Part shown: in pieces, positions 23,659 to 52,994 of the stretch
How the letters are laid out: every line of letters begins with the position of its first letter
How positions within the stretch are numbered: the first letter of the stretch is position 1
Origin: Kitasatospora sp. NBC_01246
GTDB taxonomy: Bacteria; Actinomycetota; Actinomycetes; Streptomycetales; Streptomycetaceae
Direction of reading: 5' to 3'
NCBI RefSeq assembly: GCF_036226505.1
Contig: NZ_CP108484.1
Coordinates: forward strand, 2,852,001 to 2,916,000
DNA length: 64,000 nt
Program-made: the position numbers and the translations under genes
The notes under the pieces: generated by a model
Database searches by the model: none
What the model was told of the DNA's origin: nothing
Seen by the model: only the letters and a program-made list of their open reading frames with translations

Positions 23659-26250
23659 TCATTCCGTCGCGATCGCCCTGAGGATGTCGAGCCGCGCCGC
23701 CCGGCCTGCCGGGCGCAGGCCCGCGACCGCGCCCGCCGCCAGTCCGGCCACCAGCACCACCGCGAGCTGTCCCGGCGGGATCGCGAACGAGGCCGTCCCG
23801 GCACTGTCCGAGGCCCGCACCAGCGCCCAGCCGAGGAACGCCCCGAGACCGAGCCCACCGACCGTCCCGAAGGCCGCCACCAGGACGGACTCCCAGCGCA
23901 CCATGCCCCGCAGCTGCGCCCTGGTCTGGCCGACCGCCCGGAGCAGCCCCAGCTCCCTGGTCCGCTCGTGCACGGCGAGGGTCAGGGTGTTGGCGATGCC
24001 GAGCAGGGCGATCAGCACCGCCAGGGCCAGCAGCGCGTAGACCACCGAGAGCATCATGTCGACCCCGCCGGCCGCGCTCGCCGCGTACTGCGCCCGGTCC
24101 TGCACCTGAGGGTTCCCGAAGGGGGCGGCGGCTTTCTCGACGGCGGCCCGGCCCGCAGCGAGCGGCACGGAGGCCTTGAGCCCGACGGCGACCATGGTGT
24201 CCGCGTCCTGCCCGCGGTGCGGCGCCCACGCCTGGCGGGTGATCAGATAGTCCCCGGCCAGACCGCTCTCGTCGTACAGGGCGCGGATCGTGAAGGGGCC
24301 GCTCACGCCGTCCGTGAAGGCGACGGTCACGCTCTGGCCGAGCCGCCAGCCGCGCTGCTCCGCCTCGCTGCGAGCCACCGCCAGGCCGTCGGTGCCGAGC
24401 GCGTCGAGGGCGCCGTCGACGCGGCCGAGGTCGACGATCCCGGTCAGTCGCGCCGGGTCGGTGACGTCCAGGACCCGCCCGTGACCGTCGATCCGCGCCA
24501 CGCCTCGGCCGAGGCCCACCGTCTGTCGCACCTCCGGCAGTTGGGCGAGCGCGTCCGCCAGCTTGGGGCTGACCCCGCTGCCGCCCGCACCGAAGGAGGG
24601 CGCGGTGACGGCGAGGTCACCGGCGAAGGACGAGCTCACCGTGGAATCCAGGGTGGCCTTGACCGAGGCGCCGAACACCGTGAACAGCGTGACCACCGCG
24701 ACGCCGATCATCAGGGCACTCGCCGTGGCCGCCGTGCGGCGCGGGTTGCGGGCCGCGTTGCGCCGGGCGAGCGTGCCGGACACCCCGCGCAGCCGTGGCA
24801 GCGGCGCGCCCAGCGCCCGGACGGCGAGTGCCGCGGCGACCGGACCGAGCACCACCACACCGGCCAGGACGGCCAGCCCACCCCCGGTGGTCAGGGCGAC
24901 CGACGGCCCGTCCGTCGCGCCGAGAACGGTGACCGGGACACCCGCCGCTACCAGCAGGCCGCCGAGCCCGACCCGGGCCCTGCCGGACCACCCCTCGGCC
25001 GCCCGGTCCACTCCCGTCTCGCGCAGCGCCGCCAGCGGCGCGGTGCGCCCGGCCCGGACGGCCGGCAGGAGCGCCGAGCCGACCGCGACCAGCGTGCCCA
25101 CGAGCAGCGGCAGCACGACCGCGGCCGTACTGATCACCATGCCGCCCGTCGGCAGCGAGAAGCCGAGTGCCGAGAACAGTGCCTTGAGCCCTGCGGCCAC
25201 GCCGATCCCGGCGAGCAGCCCGCCGAGCGAGGCGAGCGCACCGACGACCAGCGCCTCCGCCAGGGTCGCCCCCAGCACTTGGCCCCGCACCGCCCCGAGC
25301 GCCCGCAGCAGGGCGTTCTCCCTCGTCCGCTGGGCGACCACGATCGCGAAGGTGTTGTGGATGGTGAAGGTCGCGACCAGCAGGGCGATCCCGGCGAAGA
25401 CCAGCAGCAGGGTGGTGAACATCGTCAGGAACCGCCCCGAGACCATCGCGGTGCTCTCCTGGGTGGCCGCCGTACCGGTGATCGCCTCCACCCCGCCGGG
25501 CAGCTCCTGGGCGACCCTCCTCACCAGCTCCTGCTGGGAGATCCCGTCCGCCGCCCGGACCTGGATCGAGCCGGCCTGACCGGCGCCCTTGGGAGTGAGG
25601 TGGCGTTCGGCGTCGGCCAGCGTGAGTGCGGTGAAGGTGCTCGGGCCCATCCCGTCCGCGCTGTCCCCGAAGGTGGCGATGCCGACGACGGTGACGGTCA
25701 CCGGGTCAGGGGTGCGCAGCACGGTGGTGGAGCCGATGTGCAGCCCGCCGGCCTTCGCCGCGCCGCGGTTGACCACGGCCTCGCCGGGCGCCTGCGGCGG
25801 GTGTCCCTCGGCGAGCCGGTAGGGGTTGAGCCGGCTGTCGGTGAGCCAGTTCCCGGCCAGGGTCGGCGGCCCCTGCCCGCCGACCGGCTTGCCGTCACTG
25901 CCGACCAGTTGGCCGGCGCCCTGGATCGACGCCTCGGCGGCGGCCACCCCGGGGACGGCCCGCAGCCGCTCGGTGAGCGCCGTGTCGACGGGTGCCCGGA
26001 CACCTCCGGGTGTCCCGGGGGAGTCCAGGACGTCGGCGCTGCGGACCACCACGTCGGTACCGGCGTTGGCGTCGGCGAACAGCGTGTCGAAGTTGGAGCG
26101 CAGGGTGTCGCCAAGCACCATCGTCCCGGCCAGGAAGGCGACCCCGAGCAGGATCGAGAGGAAGGTGCCGACCAGGCGCCGCTTGTGCGCTCCCAGGGAG
26201 CGCACACTGAGCCGGGCGGCAGCGGTCGCGGCGGCCGTCGTGGAACTCAT
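23659..26250 (-). CDS. FtsX-type ABC transporter permease
   Basis: An 863-residue membrane protein with two FtsX/MacB permease modules. The first begins RRLVGTFLSILLGVAFLAGTMVLGDTL and has a periplasm-like extracytoplasmic region, then helices at TTLLLVFAGIALLVATFTI onward. The second ends with VYALLALAVLIALLGIANTLTLAVHERTRELGLLRAVGQTRAQLRGMV, the standard FtsX coupling helix. These transporters often export lipids or peptides or sense cell-envelope stress rather than import. The start overlaps the ATPase stop by 4 nt. The operon promoter carries the palindrome at 27391-27408. Confidence 0.92.
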   Translation of the reverse strand: MSSTTAAATAAARLSVRSLGAHKRRLVGTFLSILLGVAFLAGTMVLGDTLRSNFDTLFADANAGTDVVVRSADVLDSPGTPGGVRAPVDTALTERLRAVPGVAAAEASIQGAGQLVGSDGKPVGGQGPPTLAGNWLTDSRLNPYRLAEGHPPQAPGEAVVNRGAAKAGGLHIGSTTVLRTPDPVTVTVVGIATFGDSADGMGPSTFTALTLADAERHLTPKGAGQAGSIQVRAADGISQQELVRRVAQELPGGVEAITGTAATQESTAMVSGRFLTMFTTLLLVFAGIALLVATFTIHNTFAIVVAQRTRENALLRALGAVRGQVLGATLAEALVVGALASLGGLLAGIGVAAGLKALFSALGFSLPTGGMVISTAAVVLPLLVGTLVAVGSALLPAVRAGRTAPLAALRETGVDRAAEGWSGRARVGLGGLLVAAGVPVTVLGATDGPSVALTTGGGLAVLAGVVVLGPVAAALAVRALGAPLPRLRGVSGTLARRNAARNPRRTAATASALMIGVAVVTLFTVFGASVKATLDSTVSSSFAGDLAVTAPSFGAGGSGVSPKLADALAQLPEVRQTVGLGRGVARIDGHGRVLDVTDPARLTGIVDLGRVDGALDALGTDGLAVARSEAEQRGWRLGQSVTVAFTDGVSGPFTIRALYDESGLAGDYLITRQAWAPHRGQDADTMVAVGLKASVPLAAGRAAVEKAAAPFGNPQVQDRAQYAASAAGGVDMMLSVVYALLALAVLIALLGIANTLTLAVHERTRELGLLRAVGQTRAQLRGMVRWESVLVAAFGTVGGLGLGAFLGWALVRASDSAGTASFAIPPGQLAVVLVAGLAAGAVAGLRPAGRAARLDILRAIATE

Positions 26251-27002
26251 GACCGCCCCCGTTCGAAGGCCTTCATCCGGTCCAGCACCCGGTCGGCGCT
26301 CGGCTGTTCCATCCGGTCGACCAGCCGGCCGTCGGCGAGGAACAGGGCCTGGTCGGCGTAGCCGGCCGCGGTCGGGTCGTGGGTGACCATGACGACGGCC
26401 TGCCCCATCTCGTCGACCGCCCGGCGCAGCAGGCCGAGCACCTCGCCGCCGGTGCGGGAGTCGAGGTTGCCGGTCGGCTCGTCGGCGAAGACCACCTGGG
26501 GCCGCCCGGCAAGCGCCCGGGCCACGGCGACGCGCTGCTGCTGGCCACCGGAGAGTTCGCTCGGGCGGTGGTGCAGCCGGTCGCCGAGGCCGACGATGTC
26601 GATCAGCGCGTCCAGCCAGCCCCGGTCAGGTGCGGCGCCGGCCAGGTCGAGCGGGAGGGTGATGTTCTCCCGGACGGTCAGTGTGGGTACCAGGTTGAAC
26701 GCCTGGAAGACGAAGCCGATCCGCTCCCGGCGCAGCAGGGTGAGGCGCCGGTCGCCGAGCGGGCCGAGCTCGGTACCGCCGATGTAGGCCCGGCCCGCGG
26801 TGAGGGTGTCGAGGCCCGCCGCGCAGTGCATCAGGGTGGACTTGCCCGAACCGGACGGCCCCATGATCGCGGTGAACCCCCCGGCCGGGAAGTCGACCGT
26901 GACGTGGTCCAGCGCCCGGACCACGGTGTCGCCGACGCCGTAGACCTTCACGGCGTCGACGACCCGCGCGGCGGTGTCGCGTACGACATCGAGTGTGCTC
27001 AC
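26247..27002 (-). CDS. ABC transporter ATP-binding protein
   Basis: A 251-residue ATPase of the MacB/LolD type. Seen: Walker A GPSGSGKST at 48-56, Q-loop FVFQAFNLVPTL, signature LSGGQQQRVAVARAL, Walker B VVFADEPTGNLDS and the H-loop MVTHDP. It energises the FtsX permease encoded immediately downstream. GTG at 27002 overlaps the stop of the SHOCT gene (GTGA), and its stop overlaps the permease start, so the three genes are translationally coupled. Confidence 0.93.
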   Translation of the reverse strand: MSTLDVVRDTAARVVDAVKVYGVGDTVVRALDHVTVDFPAGGFTAIMGPSGSGKSTLMHCAAGLDTLTAGRAYIGGTELGPLGDRRLTLLRRERIGFVFQAFNLVPTLTVRENITLPLDLAGAAPDRGWLDALIDIVGLGDRLHHRPSELSGGQQQRVAVARALAGRPQVVFADEPTGNLDSRTGGEVLGLLRRAVDEMGQAVVMVTHDPTAAGYADQALFLADGRLVDRMEQPSADRVLDRMKAFERGRS

Positions 27003-27277: not shown

Positions 27278-27390
27278 GGTGGTTCATCTCCTCGGCGGTG
27301 GGCTTCAGCCGCTTCGGGGTGCGTCCCGAAACGCCTAGAGCGTCCCGCCGGGGAGCCTGCTCCCGCGTCCTCCGGGCAGCGGCCGTTGAA

Positions 27391-27408
27391 GTACTCCCGC
27401 GGGAGTAC
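27391..27408. promoter_or_regulatory. Shared palindromic operator before the ABC operon
   Basis: GTACTCCCGCGGGAGTAC is a perfect 18-bp palindrome centred about 122 bp before the SHOCT start. The identical 18-mer lies upstream of the adjacent histidine kinase gene. This is the expected pattern for a dimeric NarL-type regulator that controls its own operon and a target transporter. Confidence 0.7.
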
Positions 27409-27511
27409 GGACGGTCCGGCAGCCGCGCTTGGGAAGTAGCGGACAGGCACGGGGAAGGGGTGTACGACGTACCGGCCCAGGGCGTGCGGGACGGCCCAGG
27501 GCATACGAGAA

Positions 27512-27544
27512 GGCCCGGGCCGGGACGTCGTCCAGACCCGGGCC
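27512..27544. terminator. Possible hairpin terminator after the response regulator
   Basis: GGCCCGGG (27512-27519) pairs with CCCGGGCC (27537-27544) around a 17-nt loop, about 20 bp past the response regulator stop. It is weaker than the other hairpins in the window. Confidence 0.45.
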
Positions 27545-27565
27545 CCCACCCGCCGGAAGCCGCGC

Positions 27566-28243
27566 TCAGCCCAGCCAGCCGGGCCGGACCAGCCCCGACT
27601 CGTAGGCCAGCACGACGAGTTGCGCCCGGTCCCGCACGCCGAGCTTCACCATCGCCCGGCTGACGTGCGTCTTGACGGTCAGCGGGCTGACCACCAGTCG
27701 GCGGGCGATGTCCGCGTTGGACAGCCCCAGACCCACCAGCGCCAGCACCTCCCGCTCCCGCTCGGTGAGCGCCGAGACGTCCGAGAGCCCCGCCGGGGTC
27801 TGCTCCGGCGCCTTGGAGCGGGCGGCGAACTCGCCGATCAGACGGCGCGTCACCCCCGGCGAGAGCAGCGCGTCCCCCGCGGCCGCGACCCGCACGGCAC
27901 GCAGCAGCTCGGCCGGCTCGGTGTCCTTGACCAGGAAGCCGGCCGCCCCCGATCGCAGGGCCTCGAAGACGTACTCGTCCAGCTCGAAGGTGGTCAGCAC
28001 GACCACCCGCACCTCGGTCAGGGCCGGATCGGCGGCGATCCGCCGGGTCGCCTCCAGCCCGTCCGTCCGAGGCATCCGGATGTCCATCAGGACGACGTCC
28101 GGGCGGAGTTCGCGGGCGAGTCGGACGGCGGCGTCGCCGTCGTCCGCCTCACCGACCACCGTGAGGTCGTCCTGCTGGTCGAGCAGCGCCCGGAAGCCCG
28201 CCCGCACCAGCAACTGGTCGTCCGCCAGCAGTACCCGAATCAC
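27566..28243 (-). CDS. NarL/LuxR-type response regulator
   Basis: A 225-residue two-domain regulator. The receiver has the acidic pair ADDQ, phospho-acceptor Asp54 in VVLMDIRMP and the switch residues LTTF and VKDTEP. The LuxR-type helix-turn-helix is [55 protein letters not shown] at 28243 is the start; it lies in the first copy of a 29-bp tandem duplication that has pulled it away from the kinase stop. Its likely binding site is GTACTCCCGCGGGAGTAC, present before both this operon and the ABC operon. Confidence 0.92.
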
Positions 28244-28283
28244 TCGTCCTCCGCCAGCAGTACCCGAATCACTCGTCCTCCGC
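28221..28283. repeat. 29-bp tandem duplication at the kinase/regulator junction
   Basis: Two complete copies of a 29-bp unit (28221-28249 and 28250-28278) plus 5 bases of a third span the end of the kinase gene and the start of the regulator gene. Each copy contains GACGAGTGATTCGG on the minus strand, that is a kinase-type stop overlapping a GTG start. The kinase now stops in one copy and the regulator starts in the other. Confidence 0.9.
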
Positions 28284-29585
28284 ACCGGTCGTGGGCAGCC
28301 TCGCCCGGACCCGGAATCCGCCGCCGACCAGCGGCCCCGCCGTGATGGCGCCGCCGAACGCGGCGGCCCGCTCCCGCATGCCGATGAGCCCGCTGCCGGT
28401 GCCACCCGCGTCGCCGACCGCGGCCGGACCGGGGTCGTCGACCGTGACGACCAGCGCGGTCGGGTCCGACCAGTCCAGACCGACCGTGGCCCGCCGGGCC
28501 ACCGAGTGCCGGATCACGTTGGTCAACGCCTCCTGGACGATCCGGAACGCCGTGAGGTCGACGCCGGCGGCCGGTGCGCGCCGGTCACCCGTCTCGCGCA
28601 CCTCGACGGCCAGCCCGGCCCGCTGCGCCTGCTCGGTCAGCTCGTCGAGCCGGGCCAGCCCGGGCGCCGGACCGCGCGGCGCGGCCGTACCCGGCCCGCG
28701 CAGCGTCCCCAGCACCTGGCGGACCTCGCCGAGGGCCTCCTTGCTGGTCGCCTTGATCGTCGTGAGCGCCGTACGGGCCTGCTCCGGCCTGCTGTCGATC
28801 AGTTCCAGCGCGACCCCGGCCTGGACCGTGATCAGCGACAGGCTGTGCGCCAGGATGTCGTGCAACTCGCGCGCCATCCGCAGCCGTTCCTCGTCGGCCC
28901 GGCGCTGCTCCTGCTGCTGGCGGTACTCGCGGTGGGCGGCGAGCTGCTCCCGCCGGAACCGGACGATCTCGGCCACCGACAGCACCAGCAGCAGCCAGGC
29001 CACCAGCCCGAGCTCCTGCCACCAGGCGATCTGCTGCGGCTCCGTACGCAGCCAGTCGGCCGGCACCACGAAGGTGATCAGCACATGGGCGAGGTAGACC
29101 CCGCCGAGGCCCGCCCAGGCGGCCTGACGGTGCCCGGAGGCGACCGCCACGCAGCAGGCGATCACCCAGCTGGCGAAGACCGGCCCGTACGGATAGCCGG
29201 CGGCCAGGTACAGCACCGTGACGGCCGAGCTCCCCGCCACCGCCGCCACCGGCCACCGGCGGCGCAGCACCAGCAACGCCGGCCCAAGGAGCAGCAGCAG
29301 GTAGCCGAACGGGTCCAGCTGGACCCGTCCGCTCTGGTGGCCGGCGGCCGCCGTGGACCCCACCACCTGCACCGCCGCGACGACCAGCGCGGTGGCGACC
29401 GGCCAGCCTGCCTTCGCCGCCCGCACCCACGGCGGGCGCCAGGGCTCGGCCCGCCCGCCCTCGGGCATGGCGGACCCCGGCCGGGGATGCTCTCCCGCCC
29501 CAGGGGGCATTCCCGACACGGGCTGCTCCTCCGACGACGACGGCCCGGGGTGCGCCCGCGACGGCTTGGGTGTACGCGGCGTCAT
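28269..29585 (-). CDS. NarL-type sensor histidine kinase
   Basis: A 438-residue membrane kinase. Four or more hydrophobic helices ([58 protein letters not shown]) precede a short coiled coil and the HisKA_3 dimerisation domain, with the phospho-acceptor His in [17 protein letters not shown]. The ATPase has [18 protein letters not shown] and [16 protein letters not shown]. There is little extracytoplasmic sequence, so it likely senses within the membrane. The paired regulator is downstream. The 34-bp palindrome upstream is a candidate autoregulatory site. Confidence 0.92.
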
Positions 29586-29636
29586 GCCCGGAAGGCTAGA
29601 CCCCGGGCCCGGCCCACCGCGTCACCCCGGGGTGGC

Positions 29637-29670
29637 GTTCGGGCGTACTCCCGCGGGAGTACGCCCGAAC
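29637..29670. promoter_or_regulatory. 34-bp perfect palindrome before the histidine kinase gene
   Basis: The palindrome is centred about 69 bp upstream of the kinase start. Its core, 29645-29662, is the same GTACTCCCGCGGGAGTAC found before the ABC operon; flanks extend symmetry by 8 bp on each side. It may double as the terminator of the clp-type gene that ends 50 bp away, but the shared core argues for an operator. Confidence 0.7.
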
Positions 29671-52940: not shown

Positions 52941-52994
52941 CGCGAAGCCGGTGGCCCCGGACTCCCTCGGGAGTCCGGGGCCACCGGCTTCGCG
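52941..52994. terminator. Very long bidirectional hairpin terminator
   Basis: A perfect 26-bp stem (52941-52966 with 52969-52994) with only 2 unpaired bases separates the convergent Ddn-like and MFS genes. Confidence 0.85.

Follow-up and report, generated by a model that had tools for sequence, protein, structure and literature searches.

Two identical palindromes precede neighbouring operons

Why does the same 18-bp palindrome, GTACTCCCGCGGGAGTAC, stand in front of two neighbouring operons in Kitasatospora sp. NBC_01246, one encoding a two-component system and the other an ABC transporter? All of the genes concerned lie on the minus strand of the 64,000-nucleotide stretch of DNA analysed (the window), in the order Clp ATPase, kinase, regulator, SHOCT, ATPase and FtsX permease (Table 1). 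The receiver and GerE domains of the regulator and the HisKA_3 and HATPase_c domains of the kinase all exceed Pfam gathering scores, and the pair is by definition a NarL-type two-component system. Pfam domains likewise bear out the gene layout given by a first-pass annotation of the window, in which one site precedes the SHOCT–ATPase–FtsX genes and the other the kinase–regulator pair.

Table 1. Genes, putative operators and promoter elements of the locus (window positions).
Feature	Positions	Strand	Basis or remark
Membrane histidine kinase	28269..29585	-	HisKA_3 + HATPase_c (Pfam)
NarL/FixJ-type response regulator	27566..28243	-	Receiver + GerE (Pfam); GTG start
SHOCT small membrane protein, 92 aa	26999..27277	-	PF09851, E 7e-8
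ABC transporter ATPase	26247..27002	-	Pfam
Duplicated MacB/FtsX-type permease, 863 aa	23659..26250	-	PF02687 in two stretches, PF12704 in two stretches
Putative 18-bp operator, kinase–regulator operon	29645..29662	-	Exact palindrome; conserved in relatives
Putative 18-bp operator, SHOCT–ABC operon	27391..27408	-	Exact palindrome; conserved in relatives
-10 box TAGCCT, kinase promoter	29593..29598	-	Predicted leaderless start, ATG 29585
Presumed -10 box GACGCT, SHOCT promoter	27339..27344	-	46 bp past operator; consensus of 33 SHOCT promoters
Candidate weak second operator copy, kinase promoter	29621..29638	-	24 bp downstream of main copy; GACG 29620-29623 at its edge
Candidate weak second operator copy, SHOCT promoter	27367..27384	-	GACG 27366-27369 at its edge
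Perfect 34-bp palindrome around kinase-operon operator	29637..29670	.	Operator forms its core
Strong terminator-like hairpin between regulator stop and SHOCT promoter	27495..27565	-	MFE -42.9 kcal/mol

The 18-mer has no third exact copy in the window, as the first-pass annotation had noted, and allowing up to 3 mismatches adds a single match, at 52959, which has all 3 (mean of 0.05 matches in 100 shuffles). This rarity extends to the whole genome of 8,933,706 bases, where a search allowing up to 2 mismatches returned the same two exact copies and one 2-mismatch site (C1:2192642), with none for the reversed-pattern control. A third match to the core of the site, at C1:2983631, looks like coding sequence, the opening of a small reading frame read by eye, and was not counted as a target. 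Since the 18-mer is not scattered over unrelated loci and both sites are kept at orthologous promoters (see below), neither of the observations that had been named in advance as speaking against a regulatory role was made. The 18-mer appeared in none of the papers covered by a literature search, nor did two full-length variants and three shortened forms among the literature matches listed, which is no proof of absence. Further literature searches found nothing on this kinase–regulator/SHOCT system, and no single paper combining SHOCT domain, kinase, regulator and Streptomyces.

Both sites are conserved at orthologous promoters

We compared 70 genomes of the genus, including that of the window. 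Sites within one mismatch of the 18-mer number 23, in 21 genomes (reversed control, 0), and 22 of them fall within the orthologous locus, at its kinase promoter or its SHOCT promoter. The exception, at C3:4999921 of genome G001, is upstream of a gene for a 184-aa membrane protein and has GACG at +21 (L004 / L069 4922).

Orthologues of the regulator, defined by at least 80% identity among the matches listed and separated by a clear gap from paralogues (<70%), are present in 55 of the 70 genomes. Across 54 loci surrounding such an orthologue (533 kb), the sites share the outer bases STACTNCNNNNGNAGTAS around a variable centre. On the kinase side this core is exact in 44 rows, has one mismatch in 3 and is missing from 7, giving 47/54, or 48 with L067, which was counted as missing because its kinase match is partial and its exact site is present further up. 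The other kinase promoters in which no site was found among the 54 loci are those of L045, L061, L063, L065, L066 and L086. The SHOCT side is looser: 14 of 41 rows are exact, 10 have one mismatch, 9 have two and 8 have three or more. The SHOCT sites of a nine-genome clade (L044 and relatives) have a decayed or shifted distal half. A slightly wider scan brings the SHOCT-promoter sites within one mismatch to 28, as against 46 upstream of kinases and 9 elsewhere in the 533 kb; 4 of these 9 belong to the same promoters, the gene match being missing or partial.

The degenerate core is meaningful by position only. Across whole genomes of relatives it was not enriched over its reversed control (37 versus 36 in 28 genomes, 58 versus 46 in 19 genomes); these counts were dropped as evidence because the control is about equally frequent.

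Operator, GACG and -10 box keep a nearly fixed spacing

Downstream of the operator follow, in a nearly fixed order, GACG 21 bp on and a -10 box 46 bp on. In the genus kinase promoters, with -10 box and start codon located by pattern rather than annotation, TAGC begins 45–46 bp past the operator and the start codon lies 57–59 bp past it, each in 46 of 47 rows. The kinase mRNA is therefore predicted to be leaderless, the ATG coming directly after the -10 box. For the SHOCT promoters, the consensus of 33 rows shows GACG at +21 to +24 and, at +46, a weaker box that reads GAnGCT. RNA synthesis from the SHOCT promoter of the window is predicted to start near 27332. No good -35 box was seen at 17–18 bp from the -10 box.

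The same layout recurs beyond the genus. Of 80 named loci that encode a relative of the regulator, 33 carry the strict core no more than 500 bp ahead of the kinase match. In other actinobacterial families TAnnnT occurs at +44 to +47 in 33 of 34 scored sites (chance, 81/26,173 or 0.3%) and GA[CT]G at +20 to +22 in 31 of 34 (chance, 1,227/26,173). Several of the remaining named loci have related operators, such as GTACGCC...GTAG, ahead of a similar -10 box.

Scoring the operator matrix along the promoters from +19 onwards is suggestive of a further operator copy, weak and lying 24 bp downstream. The +24 offset is the highest in all three sets, with z of 4.7 for genus kinase promoters, 3.0 for genus SHOCT promoters and 3.5 for other genera, values that are not probabilities as the rows are related. 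When offsets overlapping the operator were included, +14 came slightly above +24 for the SHOCT promoters.

Activation by the cognate regulator and competing explanations

These observations make it very probable that the regulator, phosphorylated by its partner kinase, binds the 18-bp palindrome at just two promoters and activates both its own operon and the SHOCT–ATPase–FtsX operon. Phosphorylation would yield a dimer on the palindrome, with positive autoregulation at the kinase–regulator operon. The strong operator would then have its centre some 67 bp ahead of the RNA start, with a second dimer probably on the weak copy, centred about 43 bp upstream beside the -35 region. This second dimer would recruit RNA polymerase to the -10 box at its fixed spacing, and the message from the kinase promoter would be leaderless. 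Binding by this regulator is suggested by context, conservation, spacing and a phylogenetically weak covariation between residue and operator; we further infer that the regulator activates instead of repressing, binds cooperatively and answers to a membrane-related signal. For this genome, the sequence is best read as a dedicated circuit of two promoters. That part of the first-pass proposal of a self-contained envelope stress circuit is supported, given the uniqueness of the 18-mer and its conserved sites, whereas nothing in the sequence names envelope stress or any other signal.

The covariation concerns residue 188 of the regulator. Of 25 loci with leucine, 23 have T/T at operator base 5, and of 20 with alanine, 18 have other bases there (Fisher 3.5e-8), in a set of 50 of the 80 loci having an operator at -10 spacing, 5 with other residues being left out. 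Placed on a tree, the residue changes 3 times and provides 1 independent pair (sign test p 1). With so few independent changes, residue 188 was not relied on as evidence of specificity.

Could the same regulator instead repress both promoters, in a negative autoregulation? Operator and weak copy lie upstream of or near the -35 region and the direction of control is unreadable from sequence, so far in keeping with repression. The operator centre, however, sits some 67 bp ahead of the predicted start, a position typical of activators, and the lack of a good -35 box at 17–18 bp from the -10 box also speaks against it; we consider repression unlikely. A somewhat smaller probability attaches to binding of the palindromes, and control of both operons, by a paralogous member of the same NarL-type family. 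The genus search gave some ten related regulators in each genome at E 1e-60, and similar sites with the same GACG spacing or layout accompany an MMPL-linked paralogous system (GTACTGCGTCCGCAGTAC) and a Streptomyces DMT-type gene (GTACTCCATCGGCAGTAG). Yet 22 of the 23 near-exact sites are at the locus of the regulator itself, and the FtsX orthologue is absent from all 15 genomes that lack this regulator.

Least probable, and very improbable in absolute terms, is that the palindromes serve mainly as transcription terminators or RNA hairpins. What invites the idea is the kinase-operon copy, which sits just past the clp stop within a 34-bp palindrome of great predicted stability (-45 kcal/mol, z -4.4), and whose outer arms are best kept with Clp upstream: 6–8 of 8 positions pair in 14 rows with a Clp gene upstream, and 1–7 of 8 in 33 rows where Clp was not seen. 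Against this, the 18-bp core persists where the outer arms do not, both at SHOCT promoters, where in the window the palindrome does not extend beyond 18 bp, and where Clp was not seen. Moreover, the bases themselves are fixed (STACT..AGTAS), not pairing alone, and the distance to the -10 box is constant in 46 of 47 rows. As the arms are kept mainly with Clp upstream, the operator may overlap the clp terminator, the 34-bp palindrome doubling as terminator through a secondary role of its arms. The terminator-like hairpin that precedes the SHOCT promoter has a z of -1.64, so it is not clearly more stable than shuffled sequence. Between the regulator stop and the SHOCT promoter there is also a 19-bp repeat in two tandem copies, 84% alike (27473-27510).

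SHOCT, not the exporter, as the probable constant target

In two genomes the site travels with the SHOCT operon when this is unlinked from the regulator: the SHOCT–ATPase–FtsX operon is 4.66 Mb away in G068 and about 9 kb away in G005, each having kept a one-mismatch site and GACG. The G068 case is not exclusive, since other two-component genes, including one for a 63% identical regulator, lie near its SHOCT operon.

Of the 55 genomes with the regulator, 36 have an FtsX orthologue (at least 72% identity), as against none of the 15 without the regulator (Fisher 2.6e-6, uncorrected for kinship). On a tree of 53 kinase-plus-regulator rows (G001 and G034 left out), the FtsX orthologue is present in 36 rows, SHOCT without FtsX in 7 and neither gene near the regulator in 10; G034 also has SHOCT without FtsX. 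The SHOCT-only state needs 6 changes on this tree, at least 4 of them forced by starred branches. In six syntenic genomes among the window's nearest relatives the ABC genes are gone, SHOCT and the site are kept, and directly after SHOCT comes a phosphoesterase gene that in other relatives follows FtsX. An ATPase remnant is clear in one of the six (L078) and very weak in two (L074, L076).

The exporter, on our reading, was lost repeatedly while SHOCT stayed. The ABC genes look dispensable and, within the genus loci, the constant putative target is SHOCT, not the exporter. The first-pass view of the ABC transporter as the regulated neighbour therefore describes the arrangement found here, with the site ahead of SHOCT–ATPase–FtsX, but not the constant target, as relatives without the ABC genes keep SHOCT and site. 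Such losses point to a function for the little-studied SHOCT proteins. SHOCT-like domains have been tied by gene neighbourhood to membrane stress systems (PMC11237479); that SHOCT might act on the kinase is a guess.

Relation to known systems

If autoregulated, the system would belong to a known kind, that of NarL-type systems controlling themselves and a membrane target next door. The closest solved relatives of the regulator are VraR, NarL, DevR, DesR and ChrA. By analogy, the system would work most like ChrSA–HrtBA, acting through a single exporter-containing target operon. ChrSA is likewise a NarL-type system, lying beside an FtsX-type exporter reported to be the one target known for it in C. 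glutamicum (PMC7337898). Its signal is heme. The two differ in that hrtBA is divergent from chrSA in Corynebacterium, whereas here both operons are in tandem on the minus strand and a SHOCT gene leads the exporter operon.

DevR/DosR of Mycobacterium, also autoregulated and of the NarL family, binds cooperatively at tandem sites, which is reported to be essential for activation (PMC4973870). The proposed strong and weak pair, here derived from statistics only, would resemble these sites if real, and the DevR regulon, put at ~48 genes, contrasts with the two promoters here. Kinase and regulator also belong to families related to VraSR/LiaSR and MadRS, the last of which is reported to govern membrane-stress responses in Enterococcus (PMC10614854). 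Unlike those systems, ours scores far under the curated cut-offs of the NCBIfam equivalogs: the regulator reaches 161.9 of 250 bits for MadR, 145.1 of 300 for MctR and 145.0 of 300 for NarL, and the LiaS score is likewise far below. BceRS–BceAB-type detoxification modules have an OmpR-type regulator, whereas the present one is of the GerE/LuxR type.

A possible Actinomycetota-wide subfamily

Taken jointly, the data allow a broader reading, which we hold tentatively and at rather less than even confidence: an unnamed, Actinomycetota-wide NarL-type subfamily with a hard-wired promoter grammar, consisting of an 18-bp operator, a weak operator 24 bp on, GACG at +21, a -10 box at +46 and a leaderless kinase mRNA. 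SHOCT, not the ABC exporter, would be its core partner in the genus, perhaps as feedback or sensing partner of the kinase, and exporters (FtsX, MMPL, DMT) would be interchangeable add-ons of related systems. In the window's own genome, large as it is, the locus would offer a clean two-promoter regulon whose operator, spacing and start site are directly testable. Since presumably autoregulated kinase operons in several actinobacterial families show this layout, a single footprint might serve to annotate many systems that are still uncharacterised.

Some smaller features of these loci may be recorded. A 29-bp tandem duplication (28213-28270, 93% alike) spans the kinase stop and regulator start. 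Two overlapping TGA/GTG junctions result, at a point where in several relatives the genes simply overlap. The MMPL-transporter gene of the paralogous two-component locus has its site in one G/C variant, followed by GACG and a -10-like box at similar spacing (L201 2725; L204 2662; L186). Streptomyces genes for DMT-like membrane proteins (family assigned by eye) are preceded by GTACTCCATCGGCAGTAG or a variant in the same layout (L212, L223, L221), and about ten of 19 genomes have this site among the matches listed.
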